Assembly: GCA_016200005.1 (NCBI GenBank)
Contig: JACQFP010000026.1
Location: 124,001 to 188,000 of the forward strand
Direction of reading: 5' to 3'
Length of the DNA stretch: 64,000 bases
Origin: Verrucomicrobiota bacterium
GTDB taxonomy: Bacteria > Verrucomicrobiota > Verrucomicrobiia > Limisphaerales > PALSA-1396
How positions within the stretch are numbered: position 1 is the stretch's first letter; each line of letters opens with the position of its first letter. The position numbers and the translations under genes were made by a program. Below, in pieces: positions 3,001 through 37,971 of this stretch. The notes under the pieces are model-generated. The model had not been told where the DNA came from and did not search any database. It saw nothing but the letters and a program-made list of their open reading frames with translations.

Positions 3001-4473
3001 TTTCTGTTTCCATGTGCTGCCCTCGCCTTTGACCGGGTCTTGGTAGCCGCCCGCCACCGTCTCAAAGATGCGTAGCAATGAAACCATCTCGTGCAACAGG
3101 CCAACTGGAAACGCGCCCGAGCCAACTGAGGGATCAAGTGTGCGGAGACTTTTCAGGATTTCGATACTGCGGCGCGCTTCGGTCGGCGAGAGAACTTCCC
3201 GCAATGTTTTCAGTTCGTGCTCACTGAAGCCGTCGTCAGGTTCAATTTCTTTGAAAAGGCGGGTGACGCGGGCGGACCAAGTGTGCTTGGTGCCGGGGTC
3301 GGCCAGTTGTTCAGCGCGACCGGCGAAATACAGCCGCAGCGCCTCCCGGCAAATGAAGTGGACGACAATGCGCGGGGTGTAGTTGCTGCCGGTGGCCTTA
3401 CGCAGATTGGGGGCTTGGTATTCCGTGCCCGCCGATTCTCTGTGAAGAACGATGCTCTCGAAAATCTTGCCGAGCATCTCCGGGTCAACCGCCACTTCCT
3501 GATCGAGCGGCGTGTCTTCGCGGACGGTGAAGTTGTAGATTTCGAGGAGTTGATCGAAAAGATTGGCGAAGGTGGCGTTGCGGATGCGGAGCTTGGACGA
3601 TTCCGGCTTGAACTCGTCGTCATCGAACAAACCGCCATTGAGGAAGGGAACACCCGGCAGCCGATTGCCAAAACTTTGTTCCGCCAGACTTTTGAAAAGC
3701 CGGTGAAGTGAATCCGCATAGTAGGTAAAGGCGCTAGGCTTACCGCGATGTTCGGCGAAATTCTTGATGAGATATTCCGAGTCCTGATTCAGCCAGCCGC
3801 GATTCTGCGCGAAGTAGAGAAAAATGAGCCGCTCAATCAGGAGTTGGGCTTCACCGAAAGCGTCCTGTCCATCGAGCTTGTGATGTTCTTTTAGGTCTTC
3901 CTCGACAGCGCGGATGTGCTTGTCGAGTTTGCGGAAGAATTCATCGGTGAGCGCTTCTTTGTCGAACGCTTCGTCGTGATGCTGCTGAATCGTCAGCGGC
4001 GCGAGGCCGAACGATTCAAGGCTTAAAAGCGAAATCCGCTCGGACGCCGTGCGCAACCGCTGCTCCGGCCCAACCGTGATGCGGCGGAAGAGACGGCGCT
4101 TGTCGCTCGTTTCGTCGTATTTGACGTTGAGAAAATGCCAACGGTTTTGTGCGGCATTGGAAAAGACGAAAAGCGTGTAAGGATGCTCGTTGAGCAATCG
4201 CGAAACGACGGGTCGCTCGCCGCCAAGCAAGAGTTTGTCAGATGCGAGCCGCGCATAGATGACGTGGAAGTCATTATTCTCGCCGCCGCCCGCGAACAAC
4301 ACGGGATCATCCGCCAGAGCCTTGCTCACCGATTCCGTCCAGCCGCGCCGTGAAAGCGGCTGGTTCACGCGCTGATAATTGAGTTCCGACCAAAAGAGTT
4401 GCTTGAGAGGTTCGATCCCCCGCAACCCTTTCAGCAACTCCAGAACGTTCTGTTGTCGTTCGGGTCGTGACAT
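1..4473 (-). CDS. Eco57I-class DNA adenine methyltransferase, very large, 3' end outside window
   Basis: One reading frame runs without a stop from an ATG at 4473 to the left edge, giving at least 1,491 residues. An in-frame stop lies eight codons upstream and no other start codon intervenes, so this start is firm. Visible motifs: GSNYTPR near residue 370; SAM-binding motif I DPSVGSGAFPVG at about 447-458; catalytic motif IV NPPF at 755-758; and, further on, a TALFWLKHECF-like stretch typical of the TaqI-like C-terminal recognition domain. VPFLNGGLFD about 180 residues before motif I is also a hallmark of Eco57I-type enzymes. It should methylate adenine N6 and may be a one-protein type IIG enzyme, or the methylase of a BREX (PglX) or DISARM (DrmMI) locus. 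The left-hand neighbours that would decide this are not visible. The toxin-antitoxin pair to its right is consistent with a defence region. Confidence 0.85.
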   Translation of the reverse strand, partial: MSRPERQQNVLELLKGLRGIEPLKQLFWSELNYQRVNQPLSRRGWTESVSKALADDPVLFAGGGENNDFHVIYARLASDKLLLGGERPVVSRLLNEHPYTLFVFSNAAQNRWHFLNVKYDETSDKRRLFRRITVGPEQRLRTASERISLLSLESFGLAPLTIQQHHDEAFDKEALTDEFFRKLDKHIRAVEEDLKEHHKLDGQDAFGEAQLLIERLIFLYFAQNRGWLNQDSEYLIKNFAEHRGKPSAFTYYADSLHRLFKSLAEQSFGNRLPGVPFLNGGLFDDDEFKPESSKLRIRNATFANLFDQLLEIYNFTVREDTPLDQEVAVDPEMLGKIFESIVLHRESAGTEYQAPNLRKATGSNYTPRIVVHFICREALRLYFAGRAEQLADPGTKHTWSARVTRLFKEIEPDDGFSEHELKTLREVLSPTEARRSIEILKSLRTLDPSVGSGAFPVGLLHEMVSLLRIFETVAGGYQDPVKGEGSTWKQKAKEHFIQHSLFGVDIQQQAIEICRLRLWLSLLVDYELGVNPFEAERSKFIEAINHISQLPNLEMNFRRGDSLHDYICGHPVRLDGTQLTDYTDDLARIEKSGQELHQAKRAERKKRLRLEILAQRLDLGKRIVTDQIRALQTNQQVGDLFGLTGSDAATQRRVDAEIARLRDAHKQLEKDEKEFQRVQAKPLDKNFYRNLRKLEGAEPDGPHNFVWRLDFPHVLAEKDKGTVLDNLALVNEAGQGELVKAKSKSAAGFDLIVGNPPFVNVRSKAKVELYRERWPAVCVGDYQMVCPFFTLGFGLLRPSGQLGFIVSNAFLKREFGKPLVEDYFETVHVQKIVDCSGLMFPGHGTPTCIVYGRQVSSPQDADWMRLPVRVVAILPSGGDLRTTPEESPLWHTIESQQEPIPIQELNNAEQTVGFRKLFEDTRIAVGDCDRKRMLRHPALLSFYDWPTLDVLNRSDSDPLRDTLGDDVGFMFILGRNDIFMSTADHVRRQEIPPASLKRLNVGDEVRDWQLCGDAFLIFPYDQSSIRLLELSNTSPMGKYFELFSEELSNRPTFKGSFKEAGRKPYQFHQMPVERAKNPKSIALSQISTHGHFVVDFDGCAFNEKAPLVKLPAKAEPGDYHLLASELNSSTALFWLKHECFSKRESEDGDKDTYFEFAGKKLQRLPLARSIADALRGKPNALAERLTALSRACWERGRVLPSLALRKLFEKSGEAYHAWNAALPGHVAPHAKLAAAFATTPELQERFARAVSLREQLGAGMVARQEEMDWLVYAAYGLLLADHSAAQVEAEPAPLNQAQRPFRLWESTGGDFDKAITLIPADWPKPRRTLWEARLAAIRDNEHIRRIEQPVYKRRWDEQWKVSNRWMAGPVAYAQEFVDAFRWWLAEKAEWLLEHKADGGPVELGGWTPALWKDKRIQAAWPVVADAVHQVRQFKFDASENESKKLLALDASYESFSKFLKETVADETVPAGIPPAVSWEELEKKQKIPAKV

Positions 4474-4570: not shown

Positions 4571-4676
4571 CATAACAGGCACCTAGGAGGGCCCACGAAG
4601 AAACGCTTTCAATGCGCCCCAGGTGGGGCGCACTTCAAGCGCGGCTCTTCGTCGAAATTTCCTAGGTTTCGTTATG
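4571..4676. repeat. About 106-bp imperfect palindrome upstream of the methylase gene
   Basis: The two halves are mirror images around about 4623: outer CATAAC/GTTATG, then CCTAGG on both sides, then ACGAAGA/TCTTCGT, then GCGCTT-like blocks, and a GCGCCCC/GGGGCGC stem around an AGGT loop. A second perfect hairpin (GGGACGCA, 6-nt loop, TGCGTCCC) lies just left of it at about 4549-4570. It sits in the 467-bp gene-free gap 4474-4940. It may be a small non-autonomous mobile element, or a structured leader or operator for the divergent genes. No coding capacity was seen. Confidence 0.7.
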
Positions 4677-4830
4677 GACAGCAGCCGAAGCCGCGAATTG
4701 GTTTATGTAAAAAGTGTTAGTCGATAGCTTTTCTCTTTTGGTTATTAGGACAGGGACGAGTGTGCGCGGGAAATTTATCAGCGTCAAATGAAGATCAAAT
4801 GGGGAAAGTTGAAAGCTGAAGGCAGAAATC

Positions 4831-4890
4831 CGCGTCCATCTGCGGTTGGAAGCAGTTGAGAGTTGTTGGTTGAGAGTTGAGGGTCGTGGC
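4831..4890. repeat. Composite simple repeat (CGTCCATCTGCGG plus GAGAGTTG-type units)
   Basis: A CGCGTCCATCTGCGGTTG block is followed by direct short units of the TTGAGAGTTG / GTTGGTTGAGAG type. The same two blocks in the same order recur at 5998-6045. The first block resembles the diverged copy at 60680-60711; the second matches, in reverse, the repeat inside the GT9 gene at 10669-10713. Confidence 0.7.
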
Positions 4891-4940
4891 GGGCGGAACG
4901 CGGACTTGCTTTTGCGGGCATTTCAGGCGAAAAGAAAACC

Positions 4941-5336
4941 ATGAGCTTTACCGGAACAGTCAAAGACGGCGTCGTGATCCTGCCGCCGGGATTGAAACTG
5001 CCGGATGGATTGGAAGTCCAATTGACCGTGCCGGATTCCGCGTCGCCCGAGGAAGCTTTTGTGCTCCGCGAAACCGCCAGCCCGTTTCCTACGGTGGTCG
5101 GTCTGCCGGATGATCTGTCCATCAATCTCGACTATTACCTGCACGGGCATCAGCACAAGCAGCAGCCGCGTCGCGGGCGGTGGATTTGCGCGGACAAGCC
5201 GATGCCGGAGTTGACACAGCAGGAGGCGGCGGGCAGCACAGAAAAACTTCTCGCCCTCGCGGCGGAAACCGAAAACCTTCCGGCTGACCTTTCCGCAAAT
5301 CACGACCACTATCTGCACGGTCTGCCCAAACGATGA
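4941..5336 (+). CDS. Antitoxin-like protein with a duplicated C-terminal tail
   Basis: A 131-residue protein beginning with GTVKDGVVILPPGLKLPDG, the beta-rich N-terminus of AF2212/DUF104-like antitoxins that bind PIN toxins. Its stop overlaps the ATG of the following VapC gene by 4 nt, so the two are translationally coupled. Antitoxins of this kind are usually about 70-90 residues. Here the tail motif LPDDLSINLDYYLHG (about residue 55-70) reappears as LPADLSANHDHYLHG just before the C-terminus, separated by a basic linker. This suggests an internal tandem duplication and perhaps two toxin-binding tails. It should neutralise the adjacent nuclease and may repress its own promoter; no operator was identified. 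Confidence 0.7.
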   Translation: MSFTGTVKDGVVILPPGLKLPDGLEVQLTVPDSASPEEAFVLRETASPFPTVVGLPDDLSINLDYYLHGHQHKQQPRRGRWICADKPMPELTQQEAAGSTEKLLALAAETENLPADLSANHDHYLHGLPKR

Positions 5337-5734
5337 ACCTGGTGTTTGCCGACACGTGGTTCTATCTGGCCATCCTCAATCGGGCGGATCCCAATCATCC
5401 GCGCGCGGTGGCGGCCAGCCGGTCGGAACGCCGGCATCGCGTCACCACGGATTTCGTGCTGGTGGAGGTGGGGGACGCCTTGAGCAAGACGGGTAATCGC
5501 GATGTGTTCACGCGTTTCCACTATTGGATTCAAACGCACTCCGGCACGACAGTGATACCCGCCTCGCGCCAGCTTCTGGAGGACGGACTGCATCTCTACC
5601 GGTATCGCCGCGACAAGGACTGGCCGCTGACTGATTGCATGTCATTCGTCGTGATGGACGATGAGGGAATCAGTGACGCGCTCACTGGCGACCGGCATTT
5701 CGAGCAGGCGGGCTTCAAGGCGCTGCTCAAGTAG
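5333..5734 (+). CDS. vapC: VapC-like PIN-domain ribonuclease toxin
   Basis: A 133-residue PIN-domain protein. The acidic metal-binding positions are visible: Asp in FADTWFY near the N-terminus, Glu in VLVEVGDAL near residue 45, Asp in PLTDCMSFV near 102, and Asp in LTGDRHFEQAGF near 121, a typical PIN ending. PIN toxins cleave tRNA, rRNA or mRNA and are blocked by the cognate antitoxin, here the upstream gene overlapped by 4 nt. Length is normal and no disruption is seen. Its RNA target cannot be read from the sequence. Confidence 0.85.
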   Translation: MNLVFADTWFYLAILNRADPNHPRAVAASRSERRHRVTTDFVLVEVGDALSKTGNRDVFTRFHYWIQTHSGTTVIPASRQLLEDGLHLYRYRRDKDWPLTDCMSFVVMDDEGISDALTGDRHFEQAGFKALLK

Positions 5735-5806
5735 CGGGCAAGGGCGAGGAATTTGTTTTCGAGTAATGCGCGGATTCGACACCTCCATGAATCTGCTGCA
5801 AACCAC

Positions 5807-5882
5807 ACCCACCCCGACCCCTCCCAGGAGGGGAACTATCCACCATGTGGCGCTCCCCTCCTGGGAGGGGCCAGGGGTGGGT
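5807..5882. repeat. Long hairpin-forming inverted repeat, 30-bp arms
   Basis: Left arm ACCCACCCCGACCCCTCCCA at 5807 onward and a right arm ending in CAGGGGTGGGT at 5882 are nearly perfect inverted copies around a loop of about 15 nt. The 322-bp gap 5735-6056 holds this, a GAGGCGCAGAGGGTG segment resembling the decayed CCCGACCCTCTCCC block at 38072, and the composite repeat at 5998. There is no T-run, so a simple intrinsic terminator is doubtful; a dispersed palindromic element is likelier. Confidence 0.75.
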
Positions 5883-5997
5883 TCACGGGTTCAAGGCGCG
5901 GAACGTTCTTTTGGGGGAATTCTTACCCCGACCCTCTCCCCGCTCGAGGCGCAGAGGGTGAAACTGCTGTGCGTTTTCTGGGTTCGCCTGCGGCAAA

Positions 5998-6045
5998 TGA
6001 ATCTGCGTCCATCGGCGTTCATCTGCGGTTGAGAGTTGTTGGTTG
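5998..6045. repeat. Second copy of the composite CTGCGTCCATC / GAGAGTTG repeat
   Basis: Three approximately 10-nt units (CTGCGTCCAT, CGGCGTTCAT, CTGCGGTT) are followed by GAGAGTTGTTGGTTG. This is the fuller form of the repeat at 4831-4890. The same unit architecture is seen at 60680-60711 with diverged sequence. Confidence 0.7.
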
Positions 6046-6056
6046 GCGTCGGTCCG

Positions 6057-9020
6057 TCAATTCTTCGCGGACTTAAGCTTGTTGGCCGGGTTGACGCCGC
6101 GCACAACTTCGCCTTGGGTGATCGCGGTGACATAGGCGCGCGGATTCATGTCCGCCGGCGCGTCGCAACTGATTGTGATTCGATTCACGCCTGCTTCCAA
6201 CATCGGCACTCCGCCTTGCGGTTTCACTTCGGCCAGTAGTTCGCCGGTCGGGCCATACAGTTTGCAATCGGCCGGCGACCGGAGTTCGAGGTAGGAACCG
6301 CTTTCCATTTCCACCGGGAAAACGATGGTCTGCCCGCCAATCGTCAGCGACGGATTGCGCCACTTGGCTTTGATGGTGGGCAACGCGCGGACCGGACTGA
6401 GATGGCACGTCACCGAATCGTTTGGCGGCAGGTTGTTGTAAAACAGGTTCAAGCTGGAAATCGCCGAGGGGTGAATCGACTCGCGATAGATGGAATACGC
6501 GTCGCCGTAAGGCCAGATGTAATCCGTGAACCGCTGCGCCTCCGGCTCGATCAATTCGAAATACCGCCAGCCGGTGAAATCAACCACGATGTAGTTGTCC
6601 GCAATGCCGCTGAACAGATGCGCGGGGCTGTTGAGTTGGAGGTTCAGCGTCTCGCCTTTGCCATCGCCATGCACCCAGACTCCCAACGCTTCGTGTCCGG
6701 TCAGCTTGAGGGACGGGTCAAAAGTTCTTCCGGCCTTGGCCCAGGCGCCGCGGCGATTGGAGGTCGCATTGGTGGCGCTAAACCGACCGCTGGCGGCGCC
6801 GGATTTCAGCGGCTCCTTCACCGAGTCGATTTTGTGGGTGACGCCGGTTTGATCAGCCGAGTCGGAAAAGTCCTTTGCGCCACGAAAATCTGCAACGCTG
6901 ATGTTGTTCGACGCTTCGTAAGGTCCGGCGGACATAAGCGCCTCGATGCGCAATTGAAGCGGCTGCCGCACGAACTTGTTCGTGATAGACCACGAGTTGC
7001 TCCAACCGTCCAGTCCTTCCACTTTGTGACGGTCGTATTGCGCGCGACGGAACTGCCATTCGCCTTCGGCACTTTGGAACAGCGTGAATTCATCGCCGGG
7101 CGCGCGCAGTCTGGCTTTGACCGCTTCGGAAAAATAGTTCGCGTGGCGCAGGGTTTCGTATTGCCGCATGATCGTCGCGAGGCGTGGGTAGGCGGGAATC
7201 TTTTTGATGTTCGCGGGATCGACGCCCATGAGCGCGAAGCCGGTGTCCGTGCCGAGACATTTGCACATCAGATATTCGATGTCGTCGGCGAAGGTCGGTT
7301 CACCTTGCGGGCCGCTCCAGGTTTTGACCGACCACCAGCCGAGTTGGCCCGGCAAAAACATCCGGCGATTGTCCTCGTTGGCGGCGACGTGCGTATCGAT
7401 GAATTTCTTGTGAGCGCGGCGCGGATGGTCCCAAGCGCCCATGCGCGCGCGCACAAACCAGAGATGATGGCTGAAGGTGCTCATCTCCATCATCGCCGGT
7501 TTCTTGAGTCGCTTCCAAATCTCGAACGTGAACTTGGACTGATAATGCCAGGCATTCTCTCCACCGCCCACGATGTCGGAGCCGTCGAGCGCGTCCAGAT
7601 AGATCATGTCGAACCCGCCCGCGTTGAATGCCTCAGCGGTTTTGGCGGCGACCTCGGTGTAGAGCGTCGAATCGCCGTCCGGCACGAACAACCCGAAACA
7701 TTCCTTGAGATGATGCACCTTCGCACCTTGGGCGTGCAACGCGACGCGTGTGCCGTTCGCGCCGCGTTTGCAACCCGTGAATGCAAACGGCGGCTCTTTG
7801 GCGACGCCGGTGTAAGTAATCAGTTCGTCGTCGATTTGCAGCGTCACACTGTTGCGCACTGCGAAGCCAGTGATTGCGGACATGGCTTTGGTGGATTCGA
7901 CAACGGGAACGTTCGTTGAGTCGGTGGTCAACGGTTCTGCCAGCGAGAAGGTGGCGTCCTTGCCGAGGCGCGGATCGGGCACGGGCGTGACCCACGGTGT
8001 GCGTTTGTCGATGAACTGTGCGTAGGTGTGAAGTCCGGCTTGCAGTCCGGCGGCGTGCAGTTTGTCGATAACCGCTTTGAAACTCGCCCAGCCGTTCGTG
8101 TAAGTTTTCGGGTTGGGCAGACAATCGCCGAAGCGGAACGAATTGCCGCCGTGGAAATCGATCTGGGTAATTCCCAGGCTGCGCGCCAGTTTGATCCAGT
8201 CGTCCACCTTGTCTTCCGACATGTCGCCGAAGTTGAAGAGGTACGAGCCGCGATTTTTTTCCGAGTCCAGCGCCCACGGCCCACCGATCGGCGAATGTGG
8301 CAGGTCGGGCGCCGCGCTCACCACTTCCTGCAAGACTCGGCGCAGCTCCTTTGGCGGACAGCCGATCACTGCCACCCGCGCGCCTGTCAAACCGAAACGC
8401 GGATAGCACGCCGCCCAAAGCTGGTGGCTGGCACCGGGAATATCGCGAACGTTTGTCTGAAGATTCAACGCCACGGCGCAGCCGGCGAAAGGTTCGTTGG
8501 GAGTTCCTTTGAGCGTGAGCGGCAGGTCGGTAAAGACCAGTTCCTCCACACCGTCGCCGCGAACGTCGGTTACTTCGAAGACGAAATATTGCTTCTTGGA
8601 CGTGACTTTGAGCGTGGCCGTCACCCCGGCATCGCCGAACTCCACAGCCAGCTTGCCGCCAGAGTAAGACGCGGACGCGGCTGCGAACAGGCGGCCCGAT
8701 TTTTTCACGGACGCAAACGGCGCGGGTGGATTTGTGGCGCAGTAGTCTTTGCCCGTGGCACGGTCGATAAAGTGGAGATTGCGACCGTCGGCACCGAGTT
8801 CATAACGCACGTAACGGTTTTGGAGAGTCAGAGCCGGCTTGGAATGCTGCGGCGCGGCGCCGAGCAGTTGAACGCTGGTGAGCAGGAACAAGGACTGCCA
8901 AAATAGACAATGTAGCCGCCAACGTAAGGGGGCGGATTCTTGAGCGCACGCATTTTCCGCCTCCTCACGTCGGCGGCTACAAATTCGGCGGTTACGAAAC
9001 GCTTTGTGGCGAGAGTTCAT
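6057..9020 (-). CDS. Large secreted TIM-barrel-like protein, possible glycoside hydrolase
   Basis: A 987-residue frame. About residues 42-57 form a hydrophobic signal-peptide-like stretch (LFLLTSVQLLGAA). A beta-rich domain follows to about 250, then segments resembling a (beta/alpha)8 barrel: GITQIDFHGG near 287, GLQAGLHTYAQF near 330, GFDMIYLDALDG near 480, KPAMMEMSTF near 520. A C-terminal beta-sandwich-like part follows. Acidic residues after predicted strands resemble glycosidases of the melibiase/amylase type, but no family was firmly recognised. The first about 35 residues, before the hydrophobic stretch, are largely encoded by a palindromic repeat (8911-8981) and no Shine-Dalgarno is visible, so the true start is uncertain. 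It reads alone, convergent with the repeat-rich gap on its left. Confidence 0.7.
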   Translation of the reverse strand: MNSRHKAFRNRRICSRRREEAENACAQESAPLRWRLHCLFWQSLFLLTSVQLLGAAPQHSKPALTLQNRYVRYELGADGRNLHFIDRATGKDYCATNPPAPFASVKKSGRLFAAASASYSGGKLAVEFGDAGVTATLKVTSKKQYFVFEVTDVRGDGVEELVFTDLPLTLKGTPNEPFAGCAVALNLQTNVRDIPGASHQLWAACYPRFGLTGARVAVIGCPPKELRRVLQEVVSAAPDLPHSPIGGPWALDSEKNRGSYLFNFGDMSEDKVDDWIKLARSLGITQIDFHGGNSFRFGDCLPNPKTYTNGWASFKAVIDKLHAAGLQAGLHTYAQFIDKRTPWVTPVPDPRLGKDATFSLAEPLTTDSTNVPVVESTKAMSAITGFAVRNSVTLQIDDELITYTGVAKEPPFAFTGCKRGANGTRVALHAQGAKVHHLKECFGLFVPDGDSTLYTEVAAKTAEAFNAGGFDMIYLDALDGSDIVGGGENAWHYQSKFTFEIWKRLKKPAMMEMSTFSHHLWFVRARMGAWDHPRRAHKKFIDTHVAANEDNRRMFLPGQLGWWSVKTWSGPQGEPTFADDIEYLMCKCLGTDTGFALMGVDPANIKKIPAYPRLATIMRQYETLRHANYFSEAVKARLRAPGDEFTLFQSAEGEWQFRRAQYDRHKVEGLDGWSNSWSITNKFVRQPLQLRIEALMSAGPYEASNNISVADFRGAKDFSDSADQTGVTHKIDSVKEPLKSGAASGRFSATNATSNRRGAWAKAGRTFDPSLKLTGHEALGVWVHGDGKGETLNLQLNSPAHLFSGIADNYIVVDFTGWRYFELIEPEAQRFTDYIWPYGDAYSIYRESIHPSAISSLNLFYNNLPPNDSVTCHLSPVRALPTIKAKWRNPSLTIGGQTIVFPVEMESGSYLELRSPADCKLYGPTGELLAEVKPQGGVPMLEAGVNRITISCDAPADMNPRAYVTAITQGEVVRGVNPANKLKSAKN
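8911..8981. repeat. Palindromic repeat (GTAGCCGCC..ACGT..GAGGCGG family) inside a 5' coding region
   Basis: TGTAGCCGCCAACGT is answered by ACGTCGGCGGCTACA about 45 nt later, with a GGGGGCGGA/TCCGCCTCC inner stem. The same family occurs at 59118-59199 (GTAGCAGCCGACGTGAGGAG) and as a half copy at 14533-14574. Here it is translated as part of the N-terminus of the 987-residue protein, if the start at 9020 is correct. Confidence 0.75.
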
Positions 9021-30951: not shown

Positions 30952-32358
<1,407 letters not shown>

Positions 32359-32436
32359 AGGAACGAGACGGCCATTACGCCGCGCGCTTCTGCGCAATGT
32401 CACTTCAGCGGCCGAGGCAAAGCAGGCGAACCCGGC

Positions 32437-32935
32437 AACGAGCTTCTCGACCCGTTCTGGAAACTTCCCAAACAGCTTGAGCCGTCTGCGAGCCAGTTGC
32501 GCAAATCTTTGAACTGGTATGCCAAGTTTCTGGAAAGTTGCCAGAAGCTCCCGAAGCCGCTCCACAACTTTTTGAAACGGTGCAGAACTTTATGGAGCCG
32601 TCTCCCGACTTTCTGAAAATGTTCCAGGAGTTTCTGAATCGGCTCAGCAACACCTGAAACGGTTCCAGAACCTTGTGAACCGGTTTCGCAAGCTCCTGAA
32701 ACAGCTTCCCAAGACTATGGAGCAGTCCGCGATCTCGTGGAATCGTTTTAGAACCTCCTGAATCGGCTCCAGCACCTCAGGGATCGGTTTCCCACGTCCT
32801 GAAACCATTCCAGAAACTCCTAAATCGGTTTCACAACCTCTTGAAACGGTTCCAGAAGCCCATGAATCCGCTTCAGAAAGCCACTAAACCGTCTCCAAAC
32901 GTCATGGAATCTCTCCACTAACTCCTTGTAAATGA
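32437..32935. repeat. Degenerate 21-bp minisatellite, about 20+ units
   Basis: Around 500 bp of 20-22-bp units resembling CTCCTGAAACGGTTCCAGAA, varying at many positions; period 21 in most. One unit is seven codons. On the plus strand the unit reads like LLKRFQ-x and on the minus strand like LEPFQEV, both heptad-like, but stops break both frames. It fills most of the 749-bp gap 32359-33107. No promoter or terminator was identified inside it. Confidence 0.8.
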
Positions 32936-33107
32936 GCCGGTTTAGCCCGGTTTCCAATGCAAATTCCCGGAAAGCGTCAATCGGGTAGATTCCAGCCTTT
33001 ACCGAAAAAACTCATGATTTTGGAAGATTTTTTGAAAGATTGACCCCCCTTCCCCCGTATTGCCAGGCGAGCAGTATCACAATCAAAACCAAAAATAATA
33101 TAAACCT

Positions 33108-33800
33108 ATGATCAAACTTCCTTGGTTCCCTCCCGACGAGCCTGGCCAAATAATCTGGCTGACCAATTACCGGGGCAAAATCCCCACGCACGGGCCGACC
33201 TGTGGCCTGGACGCTGGCGAACTGTCCGATACGGACCAAGACCTCGAACTCTACATCTGGGTGCTCCAGACCTGGCATCCGGCCATCAAGCAGGACCTCC
33301 AGGAGGCCACTGCCTTCAAACGCATCGTCGGCAACGGAACGGGCACCGACAACGTGGTCGTGCCCGATGCCAGCAGCTTCTCGCCGCCCGGCATGCGCCC
33401 GCCCGGAGTGCTCACCCGTCTCTTCAATCAAATTGCGCGCATGAAAAAGAACGCCGGTTACACCGAAGCCATCGGGCAAGACTTGAAAATCATCGGCGCG
33501 GAGGACACCAGCGTGCATCCCGTCCCCGAATTCAAACCCGTCGTGGGGCAGGGCGATGTCTGCCAGTGCGTGCACATCACCTTCACCAAATTCGGCCATC
33601 AAGGTATTCATATTGAGAGCCGGCGCAATAATGGGGCGTGGGAATTCCTGGGCATCGACACCGAGGCACCCTACGACGACGAGCGCGCGTTGCTCGTGGC
33701 CACCACCGCCGAGACGCGCGAATACCGGATGCGCTACTGGGACAAAGGCAGCCCCAATGGCGACTGGAGTCCGGTCCAAAGAGTCATCGTCGGCCCGTAG
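33108..33800 (+). CDS. Uncharacterised 230-residue protein next to the minisatellite
   Basis: Soluble-looking protein, no signal peptide: IKLPWFPPDEPGQIIWLTNYRGK, FSPPGMRPPGVLTRLFNQIARMKKN, IGAEDTS, then a C-terminal half resembling a beta-sandwich (DVCQCVHITFTKFGHQG, WEFLGIDTEAPYDDER, YRMRYWDKGSPNGDWSPVQR), like fibronectin type III-like proteins. Recurrent in Verrucomicrobia as far as I can recall, without known function. The long minus-strand frame over the same interval is its shadow. Confidence 0.55.
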   Translation: MIKLPWFPPDEPGQIIWLTNYRGKIPTHGPTCGLDAGELSDTDQDLELYIWVLQTWHPAIKQDLQEATAFKRIVGNGTGTDNVVVPDASSFSPPGMRPPGVLTRLFNQIARMKKNAGYTEAIGQDLKIIGAEDTSVHPVPEFKPVVGQGDVCQCVHITFTKFGHQGIHIESRRNNGAWEFLGIDTEAPYDDERALLVATTAETREYRMRYWDKGSPNGDWSPVQRVIVGP

Positions 33801-33809
33801 CGCATGAGG

Positions 33810-33885
33810 CAGGGCGGGCAGTCCGCTGTCCGCCCTGCCAAAGCTTGAAACAGCCGACGGCGCGCACGGGAGTGGCGCGCCCTAC
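33810..33885. repeat. GGGCGGGCAGTCC..GCGCGCCCTAC repeat, intergenic copy
   Basis: CAGGGCGGGCAGTCCGCTGT, CCGCCCTGCC, then GCCGACGGCGCGCACGGG, AGTGGCGCGCCCTAC. Both halves form hairpins. A second copy lies inside the methylase remnant (34848-34920), and a decayed third at about 34372-34420. Confidence 0.8.
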
Positions 33886-33898
33886 GCACAACAAGAAT

Positions 33899-34213
33899 GT
33901 GAAACAGAATCTGACCTTCGCCACACGACTCGAAGTCAACTGCATCAGCAGAAGCGACCGACCCGACCTGCATGAGCGCATCAAAGCCATCGGTGGCGGT
34001 TTTCCCGGACACTTATGGGTGCATCTGCAGGAACTGGCCATCCGCTGGATCGAAGACGGCACGTTCGAATACTACGTGGAAAAAGGCGGGGATGCGGTTT
34101 ATCTCATCGTGGCGGTCAGCCAGGAGGGTCAAAAATACCTTAAGATGCCAGACGACGGAGAGGAACCGAACCACCTGTTGCGCCTGCCAGATTGTCCAAG
34201 ATCGCGTCCGTAG
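33899..34213 (+). CDS. DUF3892-like protein, upstream copy with degraded start
   Basis: Frame from GTG 33899 gives about 104 residues ending LRLPDCPRSRP. The body (FATRLEVNCISRSDRP, IKAIGGGFPGHLWVH, ELAIRWIEDGTFEYYVEKGG, GQKYLKMPDDGEEPNHLLRL) is about 65% identical to the next gene (34466-34750). Where that gene has ATG-GCA-ACG, this one has TTC-GCC-ACA, so the original start is gone. Use of GTG 33899 without a clear Shine-Dalgarno is uncertain. It may be a dying copy. Confidence 0.55.
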   Translation: MKQNLTFATRLEVNCISRSDRPDLHERIKAIGGGFPGHLWVHLQELAIRWIEDGTFEYYVEKGGDAVYLIVAVSQEGQKYLKMPDDGEEPNHLLRLPDCPRSRP

Positions 34214-34264
34214 GAACAGGGTGATAATCCAGCACCGCCGCCGCCGTTACAAAGCAAACTCGCA

Positions 34265-34293
34265 GCGGCCTTCGGAAACGCAGGCCGCTTTTT
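34265..34293 (+). terminator. Intrinsic terminator after the first DUF3892 copy
   Basis: GCGGCCT, 10-nt loop, AGGCCGC, then five T. The second copy keeps AGGCCGC and the T-run near 34759-34771 but has lost the left arm. Confidence 0.7.
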
Positions 34294-34311
34294 GGTGCCA
34301 GGAAACCTCCA

Positions 34312-34340
34312 TTGACCTGTGAACGGCCATTTTCTATTGT
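34312..34340 (+). promoter_or_regulatory. Sigma70-like promoter, duplicated (upstream, probably orphan copy)
   Basis: TTGACC, 17-nt spacer, TATTGT. It sits 29 nt upstream of a vestigial copy of the methylase 5' end (ATAGGGAAAAAAGC where the active one has ATGGCGAAGAAAAC). The matching hexamers and spacing in the downstream copy (34788-34816) support both. Confidence 0.6.
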
Positions 34341-34465
34341 TCGAATATAGGGAAAAAAGCTTCCGGGAGAGCGTGCAGTCTCTGCCCGCCGCCACGCATC
34401 ACAGATGACGGGCGTCCTGCCGCGAAACTGGACGAGATGGAATTCGCACAAACGAAGGAAGAGCT

Positions 34466-34750
34466 ATGGCAACGCGAGTCGAAGTTAACTGCATTAACAG
34501 AACCGACAGGCATGACCCGTATGAGCGCATCAACGCCATCGGTGGCGGTTTTCCCGGACACCAATGGACGCATCCGCACGAACTGGCCATCCGCTGGATC
34601 GAAGACGGCACGTTCGAGTACTACATGGAAAAAGGCATGTATGAGTTTCGTCTCATCGTGGCGATCAGCCATTACGGTCACAAATACCTCAAGACCAGCG
34701 CCGACGGAGACCAGCCGGACAACCTCTTGAGCCTGCCAGAGTGCCCGTGA
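34466..34750 (+). CDS. DUF3892-like protein, downstream copy
   Basis: 94 residues: ATRVEVNCINRTDRHDPYERI, AIGGGFPGHQWTH, ELAIRWIEDGTFEYYMEKG, HKYLKTSADGDQPDNLLSL. The DUF3892-like core is a compact alpha/beta domain of unknown function. A good Shine-Dalgarno (AAGGAAG, 34454-34460) precedes ATG 34466. Arisen from a tandem duplication with 33899-34213. Located next to methylases; small DUF3892 genes are found in mobile and defence regions, so a role there is possible. Confidence 0.75.
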   Translation: MATRVEVNCINRTDRHDPYERINAIGGGFPGHQWTHPHELAIRWIEDGTFEYYMEKGMYEFRLIVAISHYGHKYLKTSADGDQPDNLLSLPECP

Positions 34751-34787
34751 TTGCATTGAGGCCGCTTTTTTTGCGCTGAAAGCTGCG

Positions 34788-34816
34788 TTGACCCGTGCAC
34801 AACCGTTTTCTATTGT
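34788..34816 (+). promoter_or_regulatory. Sigma70-like promoter, predicted leaderless start for the methylase remnant
   Basis: TTGACC, 17-nt spacer, TATTGT ending 34816, and the next gene's ATG at 34823. A start about 7 nt after the -10 would fall on or beside the ATG, implying a leaderless mRNA. No Shine-Dalgarno is visible. A diverged copy of this module lies at 34312-34340. Confidence 0.65.
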
Positions 34817-34822
34817 CCATTC

Positions 34823-35293
34823 ATGGCGAAGAAAACTTCCGGCGCAGGTAGGGCGGGCAGTCCCCTGCCCGCCGCTGGCACGCCAACCGCCGACGGCGCG
34901 CACGGAGTGACGCGCCCTACCACCAGAACCAAACCCTCCGCCCTCGTGGATACGCTGGTCATTTACTGCGGCGACAATCTGGAACAACTCAAGAAACTGC
35001 CCGACGCCTGCGTTGACCTCAGCTACATTGACCCGCCGTTCAATTCCAACCGCAACTACGAAGTCTTTTGGGGCGAGACCAAGGAGAAGCGCGCCTTTGA
35101 AGACCGCCACGCCAGCACGCAAGCCTACATTGACTTCATGCGCCCGCCCTGCGTGGAACTGGCCCGCGTCCTCAAAAAGACCGGCAGCTTTTATTACCAC
35201 TGCGACTGGCACGCCTCCCACTACGTCAAGGTCATGCTCGGCGAGATTTTCGGAGAAAATAATTTCTTTGCGCATCATTCCCTGCGAAGCTAG
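34823..35293 (+). pseudogene. Truncated DNA adenine methyltransferase (N-terminal remnant)
   Basis: 156 codons starting MAKKTSG. From residue 39: VDTLVIYCGDNLEQLKKLPD, YIDPPFNSNRNYEVFWGET (motif IV DPPF), FMRPPCVELARVLKKTGSFY, HCDWHASHYVKVMLGEIFGENNF, then HHSLRS and a stop. Intact enzymes of this beta-class continue for several hundred residues, including the SAM motif I, absent here. The break coincides with the start of an unrelated methylase gene 10 nt downstream. Residues about 9-33 are encoded by a palindromic repeat (34848-34920), in frame. Almost certainly inactive. Confidence 0.8.
34848..34920. repeat. GGGCGGGCAGTCC..GCGCGCCCTAC repeat, in frame in the methylase remnant
   Basis: GTAGGGCGGGCAGTCCCCTG, CCCGCCGCTGGC, then GCCGACGGCGCGCACGGAGT, GACGCGCCCTAC. 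Translates as GRAGSPLPAAGTPTADGA, GVTRP. Same family as 33810-33885. Confidence 0.8.
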
Positions 35294-35302
35294 ATCTCAG
35301 AA

Positions 35303-36262
35303 ATGGTATCCAATCTTTTCAACGAGCGAATTCAAATCGCTGATACGTTCTCAGAAAACGAGCGGCTGGTCACAATCTGTGATGATGCCTTGGTGTGTGC
35401 GAAATCTCTCCCAACGAATTTCTTTTCGTTGATCATCACTTCGCCCCCTTACAACTTGGGCAAGGAATACGAACAGCGAGCCTCGTTGCGGGATTACTTG
35501 GCGCAGCAGAAGCCGCTGATTAAAGAACTGATTCGCTCGCTCAAACGAAGCGGCAGTCTTTGCTGGCAGGTCGGCAATTATGTTGAAGACGGCGAGGTTT
35601 TCCCCCTGGATGTTTACTACTATGACCTTTTCAAGAGCGAGGGATTGCAGCTTCGCAACCGAATTATCTGGCATTTCGAACACGGTCTTCATTGCAGCCT
35701 CCGTTTTTCGGGACGTTATGAGACGTTGCTTTGGTTCACCAAGTCAGACCATTACCTTTTCCATCTCGACCCTGTGCGCGTTCCGGCGAAGTATCCCGGC
35801 AAACTTCATTTCAAGGGTGAAAAACGCGGCCAACCTTCTGGCAATCCCCTCGGCAAGAATCCGTCGGACGTCTGGACAATCGTAGCCCAAGATTGGGAAC
35901 GGGGGATTTGGGAGATTCCGAACGTGAAGGCCAATCACCCGGAGAAAACCGAGCATCCCTGCCAATATCCGGTCGAGTTAGTGGAACGATGTGTCTTGGC
36001 ACTTACGAACGAGAACGACTGGATTTACGATCCCTTTTGCGGCGTCGGTTCTGCCCTCATCGCTGCGGCCAAACACAAACGCCGCGTCGTGGGTTGTGAC
36101 CGGGATGAAAAGTATCTGAAAACCGCTCACGAGCGGCTTCACAAATTAGCGGACGGAACGCTCAAGCTGCGCCCGCTAGGCAAGCCGGTCTTTGTGCCGA
36201 CAGGTCGCGAGAAGGTTGCTCAACGACCCGCCGCTTGGGAGAACGAAAAGGTTCTGTTGTGA
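35303..36262 (+). CDS. Type II DNA methyltransferase, beta class, probably N4-cytosine
   Basis: 319 residues. Catalytic motif IV TSPPYNLGKEY (near 47) precedes SAM motif I DPFCGVGSALIAAA (near 256), the beta-class order; SPPY rather than DPPY favours N4-methylcytosine, as in BglII-type methylases. No target-recognition motif could be assigned. The stop TGA overlaps the GTG of the adjacent restriction enzyme gene, so the two are coupled and the methylase is made first. Base composition is visibly less GC-rich than neighbouring chromosomal genes, consistent with recent transfer. Confidence 0.88.
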   Translation: MVSNLFNERIQIADTFSENERLVTICDDALVCAKSLPTNFFSLIITSPPYNLGKEYEQRASLRDYLAQQKPLIKELIRSLKRSGSLCWQVGNYVEDGEVFPLDVYYYDLFKSEGLQLRNRIIWHFEHGLHCSLRFSGRYETLLWFTKSDHYLFHLDPVRVPAKYPGKLHFKGEKRGQPSGNPLGKNPSDVWTIVAQDWERGIWEIPNVKANHPEKTEHPCQYPVELVERCVLALTNENDWIYDPFCGVGSALIAAAKHKRRVVGCDRDEKYLKTAHERLHKLADGTLKLRPLGKPVFVPTGREKVAQRPAAWENEKVLL

Positions 36263-36831
36263 AAGTCGCGGGCGAGTTTTCCTTCAACAACGGTTCAACC
36301 TTTGTCACCAAGCACTATCAGGCTTTGCTTGATGAAGTTTATGAGGTCATTGCGCGGGTCGACAGCGCCATCCACAAAACGAAGCGAAGCAAAGAGAAGA
36401 CGATGCGGCGGCGAATGCTTTTCAGCCCCAGAGCGCTCAATGCATCTTTCAAGCGGGAGTTTTCCACCTTTGATGAATGGTCACAGTGCAAGGTTCGTTG
36501 TGACTATCCGACCGAGTTTTACAAGCCGGGATACAAAGCCGAACCACTATCCAAAGGAGCGTTTCGCGAAATGGATTTTGTGAAGGGCGGGCTGGGCGTT
36601 GAAGTGCAGTTCGGCAAGTATGCGTTCATGGTTTACAACGTCTGCGCCAAGATGACGATCTTTCACAAACTCGGCCACATCAAAGCCGGCATTGAGATTG
36701 TGCCGATCAAGCGGTTTGCCGACCAGATGTCCACCGGTGTCTCTTACTTTGAGCAGTTCGTTTGGGATTTGCAGCATCGCGGGGTTGCCGACATTGACAT
36801 CCCCGTTCTCATCATCGGCATTGATGCTTAA
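36259..36831 (+). CDS. BglII/BstYI-family type II restriction endonuclease
   Basis: 190 residues from GTG 36259 (GTGA overlap with the methylase stop); an upstream in-frame TTG at 36235 is possible. The active site MDFVKGGLGVEVQFGK gives Asp106, Glu115 and Gln117. The nine-residue Asp-to-Glu spacing and Glu-x-Gln, where most nucleases have Glu-x-Lys, match BglII (Asp84, Glu93, Gln95). The C-terminal MSTGVSYFEQ and ADIDIPVLIIGID also fit that family. The family cuts GATC-centred sites such as AGATCT or RGATCY; the exact site here is not derivable. Confidence 0.88.
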   Translation: MKVAGEFSFNNGSTFVTKHYQALLDEVYEVIARVDSAIHKTKRSKEKTMRRRMLFSPRALNASFKREFSTFDEWSQCKVRCDYPTEFYKPGYKAEPLSKGAFREMDFVKGGLGVEVQFGKYAFMVYNVCAKMTIFHKLGHIKAGIEIVPIKRFADQMSTGVSYFEQFVWDLQHRGVADIDIPVLIIGIDA

Positions 36832-36876
36832 GATGCGAAGCCCAAAAACAGGCTACTGAAGGCGGCCTTGTCAGCC

Positions 36877-37971
36877 TCACTGCGCTCCATTACCTGATGA
36901 AACAGAGCGTCTCAGAATCTTCATGTAGGATTGGTCTTTTTCCCTATTTTCCCAAGCTGCACGAATATGTTTGACGAGCTCTGGGAGATCGCTCTCGACC
37001 GTCGAACGCCACAAATTTGGCTGATATTCATGGACACGAAGCATGTTATCAACATCAAACACTTTACCAGTCCCAGATGCTTTGATCAGGGCTACAGGCT
37101 TTTCCATAGCCATGCGAAGTCCCAATTCGAAAAGGACATTCGGGTTGTGATCGGTCAGATCGGCAATCACAAGATCCGCTTCGAGCAACTCGTTCACAAT
37201 TGTGGACTGAATGACATCGCTACCCTGCCGGTTGGCAGTCTCGACGTTGAAGCCCGCATCGAGCGCGGCCGGCGTGATCAGGCTCCGAAGAACTTCCGCA
37301 AAAAATCCTATGGGCCGATCTGGGGTTTTCTCGACGAACGGCATTATGACGAATGCCTTTATTCCTGATTTCTTCGCCGCTTCACCCACGATAACAGTCG
37401 TGGGCGTTTCGCTGCCCCCGGCGCTAATCGCCGAGTCGCCAGACGTAATACCCAAGTATTTGCAATTCTCTCGAAACACGCGAGAGAACTCCTCATGGAA
37501 TTTCGGTGAAAGCGCAAATTCACGCTCCAAAGTGTTTCCGAGATATTTCATCTCGGGTAAGTTGCTGCTCTTATAATGTTGCAGCACTTTACTGAAGAGT
37601 TCGATTTTATGAAATGCCTCAACCTTTTTTGCATGTTCAACATCTGGACTCGGCGCGTACACGAGCTCCCTTCCGAAGTCGGTAAGTGCTATAAGAGCCG
37701 TGTCACGCGTGCCTGTCGTTAATCCGAAATCCCTGGAGGCCGCACTAAGGTAATAGAAATCAGGTGTCTTAGGTGACATGCTGACTGCCTCAGCGACTTG
37801 AGCTGGTGCCCACGGATTACCACCGTTTAACCCCTTGATTTTGTAAGGAATCTCCAGTGCTTTTGCTAATGGCGCCTTAGGATAAGGGCGTGTGACCTTT
37901 CCGCGCCCTCTGGCTCCCGATCTCCGGCGCGCTTTCAATTGAGGTTTTTCTGTTTTAATTTCTTGAGTCAT
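36877..37971 (-). CDS. Nucleoside deoxyribosyltransferase-like putative defence effector
   Basis: 364 residues from ATG 37971, preceded by a strong Shine-Dalgarno (GTGGGGA). The N-terminus is Lys/Arg-rich, then a winged-helix-like region (APAQVAEAVSMSPKTPDFYYLSAASRDFGL, then ALTDFGRELV). About 200-310 is a Rossmann-like domain: IKAFVIMPFVEK, GSDVIQSTIVNELLEADLVI, ADLTDHNPNVLFELGLR with Glu282 of the N-x-x-x-E-x-G type. This matches the TIR/deoxyribosyltransferase-like (NDT, DRHyd) effectors found in bacterial conflict systems, which degrade or modify nucleotides. Convergent with the BglII-like gene across 45 nt. The function in defence is inference. Confidence 0.7.
   Translation of the reverse strand: MTQEIKTEKPQLKARRRSGARGRGKVTRPYPKAPLAKALEIPYKIKGLNGGNPWAPAQVAEAVSMSPKTPDFYYLSAASRDFGLTTGTRDTALIALTDFGRELVYAPSPDVEHAKKVEAFHKIELFSKVLQHYKSSNLPEMKYLGNTLEREFALSPKFHEEFSRVFRENCKYLGITSGDSAISAGGSETPTTVIVGEAAKKSGIKAFVIMPFVEKTPDRPIGFFAEVLRSLITPAALDAGFNVETANRQGSDVIQSTIVNELLEADLVIADLTDHNPNVLFELGLRMAMEKPVALIKASGTGKVFDVDNMLRVHEYQPNLWRSTVESDLPELVKHIRAAWENREKDQSYMKILRRSVSSGNGAQ

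Follow-up and report, generated by a model that had tools for sequence, protein, structure and literature searches.

Tandem DUF3892 genes beside a truncated DNA methylase in a Verrucomicrobiota bacterium: a locus probably assembled by duplication and recombination

Introduction

Among the type II and orphan N6/N4 DNA methylases (PADLOC PDLC03339, CcrM-like), an enzyme that retains the DPPF motif and has lost its C-terminal AdoMet-binding part is expected to have no activity. Type II restriction–modification (RM) systems of the BglII/BstYI kind consist of an adjacent methylase and endonuclease, the latter cleaving AGATCT or RGATCY. In the palindromic elements of Rickettsia, a short dispersed palindromic repeat lies in frame in coding sequence. 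For the DUF3892 family (PF13031; PHROG 8224), a dsRNA-binding/HPF-like fold and a role as a sensor have been proposed, and fusions of certain of its proteins to Min-Wnt effectors have been described (PMC12419801).

The locus described here lies in a stretch of 64 000 nucleotides from a Verrucomicrobiota bacterium (assembly GCA_016200005.1, contig JACQFP010000026.1, positions 124 001–188 000; hereafter the window, with positions counted from its first letter). It holds a tandem pair of genes from a small DUF3892 family that is dispersed in the genome, and downstream of each gene is what reads as a copy of an N6/N4 methylase promoter and start. The first-pass annotation took this arrangement for the tandem duplication of an RM-associated module that was falling apart. 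We compared it with paralogous loci on other contigs of the same genome, above all C48 and C61, and with homologous loci in other genomes.

Repeat structure

The repeated part of the locus comprises the following features.

33899–34213 (+): DUF3892-1, the upstream copy, with a GTG start
34265–34293 (+): intrinsic terminator after DUF3892-1, a stem-loop followed by a T-run, conserved on C48
34312–34340 (+): P1, putative duplicate of the methylase promoter, TTGACC-17-TATTGT
34347–34392 (+): relic of the start region of the methylase, with ATA in place of ATG, and the opening part of a REP-like element, aligned to 34823–34875
34424–34465 (+): leader of DUF3892-2, homologous to the leaders of divergent type 'c' genes (DUF3892-c) on C48 and C61
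34466–34750 (+): DUF3892-2, the downstream copy, with an ATG start and a mosaic body
34760–34772 (+): terminator remnant after DUF3892-2, only the right arm and the T-run, from comparison with the stem-loop of copy 1
34788–34816 (+): P2, putative promoter of the methylase fragment, TTGACC-17-TATTGT, ending 6 nt before its ATG
34823–35293 (+): N-terminal fragment (156 aa) of an N6/N4 DNA methylase

A repeat search recovered the two segments that had been reported as duplicated, 33899–34390 and 34466–34865, in the same order and orientation. The first block, 33920–34205 and 34469–34754, is 286 nt long in each copy with 81% identity (repeat finder; BLASTN E 4e-72), and the core of the second, 34290–34366 and 34766–34842, is 77 nt long with 71% identity (repeat finder; BLASTN E 2e-14). 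By local alignment the second block extends to 34282–34392 and 34759–34875 at 72% and spans the T-run, the TTGACC-17-TATTGT element and the methylase start; the promoter and start region taken alone is 74% identical over 85 nt between P1 and P2 (E 2e-10). Similarity therefore runs beyond the DUF3892 frames, and the low identity outside them that the first-pass annotation had named as evidence against a duplication is not what is seen. The codon differences that it listed are likewise present, with TTC in copy 1 facing ATG in copy 2, and ATA (34347) facing ATG (34823) at the methylase start.

The two copies are thus adjacent, in the same orientation and significantly similar over more than one gene, as in a simple tandem duplication. 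They do not share one origin along the whole length or one 5' flank, since their leaders differ and the body is a mosaic. The spacing between the copies shifts from 549 to 476 between the blocks because copy 2 has lost around 60–70 bp after its stop codon, a deletion that took the left arm of the terminator stem, which copy 1 retains. With this stem broken, transcription of copy 2 is predicted to run on into the methylase fragment. The suggestion that the repeat is a dated record does not hold: divergence is unequal across the two stretches (around 18% and 28%), and with recombination likely no date can be derived and nothing at the duplicated DUF3892 locus is datable.

The two DUF3892 genes

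Both open reading frames encode DUF3892 proteins by their PF13031 scores of 37.8 bits (copy 1) and 52.9 bits (copy 2), with a gathering score of 22.3. Copy 1 has an in-frame GTG at 33899, upstream of the TTC codon, which gives an N-terminal extension. A paralogous unit on C48, consisting of ORF230, a degenerate REP element, a DUF3892 gene and a terminator, is 81% identical over 1247 bp; C48 ends 195 bp upstream of its ORF230, and the comparison of the flanks ends there. The DUF3892 gene of that unit has the GTGAAACA start and the N-terminal extension, as copy 1 does. The two proteins share 80% identity, no stop occurs in 104 codons, and the NG86 dN/dS is 0.34, which, coming from 47 differences, is an indication of constraint and not proof (the DUF3892 dN/dS values are each based on 41–51 differences). 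With an upstream start conserved in this way, the earlier view that copy 1 had lost its ATG is not supported, and pseudogene status is not shown.

Copy 2 has a different background. Its leader is unlike the flank of copy 1 and matches those of DUF3892-c on C48 (34 aligned columns) and C61 (27 columns) with p ≤ 0.001 against shuffles, a short match of 34 nt. Its body is 92–98% identical to that of the C48 DUF3892 gene over the first 150–160 nt and 72–80% identical over the remainder, where copy 1 is the closer of the two to C48. The best break lies near 34618, with a maximum chi-square of 26 that was reached in none of 5000 permutations; it could partly stem from unequal rates instead of conversion, as copy 1 has several unique changes in its 5' part. 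For copy 2 the dN/dS with C48 is close to 1 and does not demonstrate constraint. On C48 the unit has a DUF3892-c gene after it, and tandem DUF3892 genes may therefore predate the events in the window. A tandem pair also occurs on a Pseudosulfitobacter plasmid, contig C31 holds a further DUF3892 relic, and on C61, C13 and C7 there are remnants of the 3' end of ORF230.

The family is rare in the phylum, with members in 15 of 388 genomes and in three of 97 relatives. In two genomes a DUF3892 gene immediately precedes type I RM genes, apart from one short gene in the gap (L041, 789–1079, and L163, 5958–6254), and these two rank among the nearest relatives of the window genes; the neighbours of others are metabolic genes, plasmid-borne HTH and ImmA/IrrE genes, and phage structural or late genes. 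On C61 (L039, G000:C61:28000-42000, positions 4619–7021), an ORF230 3' relic and terminator, a GmrSD-like restriction gene and a DUF3892-c gene with a similar terminator are found together, and another N6/N4 methylase lies around 2.5 kb beyond DUF3892-c. Two DUF3892 relatives were found in viral contigs; on one of these contigs (L238), two different DUF3892-like genes, at 3864–4310 and 5001–5288, lie antisense among structural genes, like morons. Predicted structures of ORF230 and DUF3892 are of low confidence (mean pLDDT 39 and 42, respectively), and a PDB match of DUF3892 to OspA (E 0.0009) was dismissed as spurious, as no stretch of it passes by itself.

The methylase fragment and its neighbours

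Downstream of the repeat, the methylase fragment contains a repeated element and is followed by a complete RM pair.

34846–34920 (+): REP/MITE-like element, in frame in the N-terminal linker of the methylase fragment, with many copies in the genome
35303–36262 (+): complete DNA methylase of a BglII/BstYI system (PF01555, 6.7e-46), adjoining the endonuclease in relatives
36256–36831 (+): BglII/BstYI-like restriction endonuclease (PF09195, 9e-18; BstYI structure, 2.7e-28)

The first-pass annotation was right that the methylase is broken: 156 aa are left of an enzyme of around 500 aa, and a genome search found the remainder nowhere else in the genome. The fragment is 82–93% identical to 80 homologs from Verrucomicrobia, Planctomycetota, Acidobacteria and others. 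It holds the catalytic DPPF/SPPY motif (SYIDPPFN in the translation), and its match to PF01555 stops at profile position 76 of 221, having begun at position 1, so that the C-terminal AdoMet-binding part is absent. With this part lost, the fragment should be inactive, judging from its sequence. It ends where the complete BglII/BstYI-like pair starts, and at 35303–36831 an endonuclease profile and an adjacent methylase are found together, as in a type II RM system. An AGATCT (BglII) site lies at this junction (35292–35297), one of six in the window; insertion of the pair at its own site was considered and set aside, given that number.

The two TTGACC-17-TATTGT elements are the only sigma-70-like matches in 33000–36900 by a simple scan, for which shuffled sequence averages around 1.5. 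Promoter-like elements are present 6–8 nt before homologous methylase starts, ending 6–7 nt before the ATG in L064, L083 and L090, and P2 is therefore read as the methylase's own promoter and P1 as its duplicate. The same linker of the methylase holds similar in-frame REP-like inserts in L063 and L090 (at about 5900–6000 in each); other homologs have different linkers, some of which resemble other repeats. A search of 32300–36900 gave no Rfam match.

A DUF3892 profile that does detect divergent members in other genomes found none at the 80 methylase loci, 68 of which have at least 1.5 kb of upstream sequence. The intact DUF3892–methylase pairs that an RM-associated module would lead one to expect elsewhere are thus absent from these loci, homologs of the methylase have a promoter of this type of their own, and DUF3892 is no fixed part of this methylase system.

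ORF230 and its upstream array

The unit that carries DUF3892-1 begins well upstream of the repeat.

32460–32917 (+): array of around 22 degenerate, dyad-symmetric 21-bp units (fitted), the only such peak in the window (lag-21 autocorrelation, z around 10)
33108–33800 (+): ORF230, 230 aa, member of a multi-copy family
33807–33885 (+): REP/MITE-like palindromic element between ORF230 and DUF3892-1, with many genome copies (folding z −4.6); C48 has a degenerate version in the corresponding position

ORF230 is 86% identical in protein sequence to its C48 paralog and strongly constrained (dN/dS 0.09–0.15). No family match was found for it in Pfam, NCBIfam, PADLOC or PHROG, and no relative in viral contigs; of 293 genomes of the order, 32 have relatives, and several copies per genome are common. 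Strong 21-nt periodicity is present upstream of 26 of the 34 homologs with enough upstream sequence (the homologs studied for arrays include L177–L194, L222, L228–L236 and L131); of the 17 whose downstream flank can be read, none shows it there. Units were fitted in 23 arrays. Their sequence mostly changes between loci but has dyad symmetry (p below 0.05 for 18 of the 23 taken singly; around 1e-22 combined). A 21-nt scan of 1.04 Mb, from loci retrieved for unrelated purposes, yielded five peaks, the strongest two of which are at L131, directly before an ORF230 homolog in a Phycisphaerae genome, and at L111, where the repeat runs into the contig end; the third (L069) is a coding repeat and the remaining two are weak. 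A heptad-coding gene was rejected as the source of the periodicity, as no frame is consistently open across the homologs.

With units at two helical turns and dyad symmetry, the array at 32460–32917 looks like a set of operator or iteron sites; the adjacent gene, ORF230, has no family match that would make it a replication initiator or a known DNA-binding protein. A literature search on such 21-bp arrays found no description. We tentatively propose, as a possibility that we hold with some doubt, that the unit bearing DUF3892-1 is part of an undescribed element, in which an ORF230 gene (multi-copy in Verrucomicrobia and present in a Phycisphaerae genome) would have the dyad-symmetric array directly upstream, each ORF230 protein or a partner would read its own array, and DUF3892 would have been picked up as cargo in the space separating ORF230 from its terminator. 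Period and symmetry that are kept while the unit sequence varies by locus are what would be expected in that case. This array is the most interesting part of the region and would, if it is confirmed, amount to a conserved DNA element open to experimental test.

History of the locus

Taken together, these comparisons make it probable that duplication and recombination among DUF3892 paralogs, and not one tandem duplication, built the array of two genes, that the truncated methylase has its own promoter, and that DUF3892 is independent of the methylase. Copy 1 would belong to the ORF230–REP–DUF3892–terminator unit found also on C48, and copy 2 would combine a mosaic body with a leader from another DUF3892 lineage, represented on C48 by the gene after the unit; this argues for recombination in addition to duplication. 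P2 would be a near-leaderless promoter of the methylase and P1 a duplicated relic without a start, and the methylase would have been cut to 156 aa at the point where the complete methylase–endonuclease pair begins. A single duplication of DUF3892, promoter and methylase 5' end, with decay of the upstream copy, accounts for the order and orientation of the repeats, and for the fact that both copies include the methylase start and run into the REP-like element. It is nonetheless unlikely, given the unlike 5' flanks, the mosaic body, and the open frame, conserved start and low dN/dS of copy 1. As for a false tandem made by joining two strain variants, the genome is in 87 contigs, but such an artefact is hardly credible for copies that differ by around 18%, have unlike flanks and both lie inside a 209-kb contig, with tandem DUF3892 genes on C48 as well.

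Two near relatives upstream of type I RM genes and the DUF3892-c gene beside a GmrSD-like gene on C61 could suggest that DUF3892 works together with the methylase or the RM system, in a rare module of which other examples were missed. We regard this as improbable, since the family is absent from all 80 methylase loci, its partners vary from place to place and the methylase has its own promoter. From that absence and the mixed neighbours elsewhere, the two genes are read as independent accessory genes; their proteins are probably still made and would serve mobile or defence regions as small accessory factors, with no dependence on the methylase.

The observation in the first-pass annotation is thus confirmed and its interpretation partly supported: a DUF3892 gene with a methylase promoter and 5' end is present twice, and the single event is what the two lineages of flank and the mosaic body speak against. 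It would be tempting to infer that copy 1 is dead or that DUF3892 goes with this methylase; the comparisons correct both readings. As a duplication the locus is ordinary though somewhat intricate, a small accessory gene family reshuffled beside RM genes, and it provides an example of a methylase promoter duplicated together with a neighbouring gene.

Comparison with known systems

The methylase fragment falls among the type II and orphan N6/N4 methylases by its identity to the 80 homologs, and differs from these enzymes of around 500 aa in keeping only 156 aa. The adjacent methylase and endonuclease, with similarity to PF09195 and BstYI, are as in BglII/BstYI systems, and the pair is ordinary among them except that its left edge is the truncation point of another methylase. 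The element in the methylase linker is like the Rickettsia palindromic elements in being a dispersed short palindrome in frame in a gene, a likeness by description only; the present element is found again in homologous methylases from several genomes. Both DUF3892 genes exceed the Pfam cut-off and match phrog_8224, and copy 2 carries the C-terminal motif DGxxPxNLLSLPECP of phage and bacterial relatives. Whereas some published DUF3892 proteins are fused to Min-Wnt effectors (PMC12419801), those in the window are two stand-alone genes in tandem beside RM genes.
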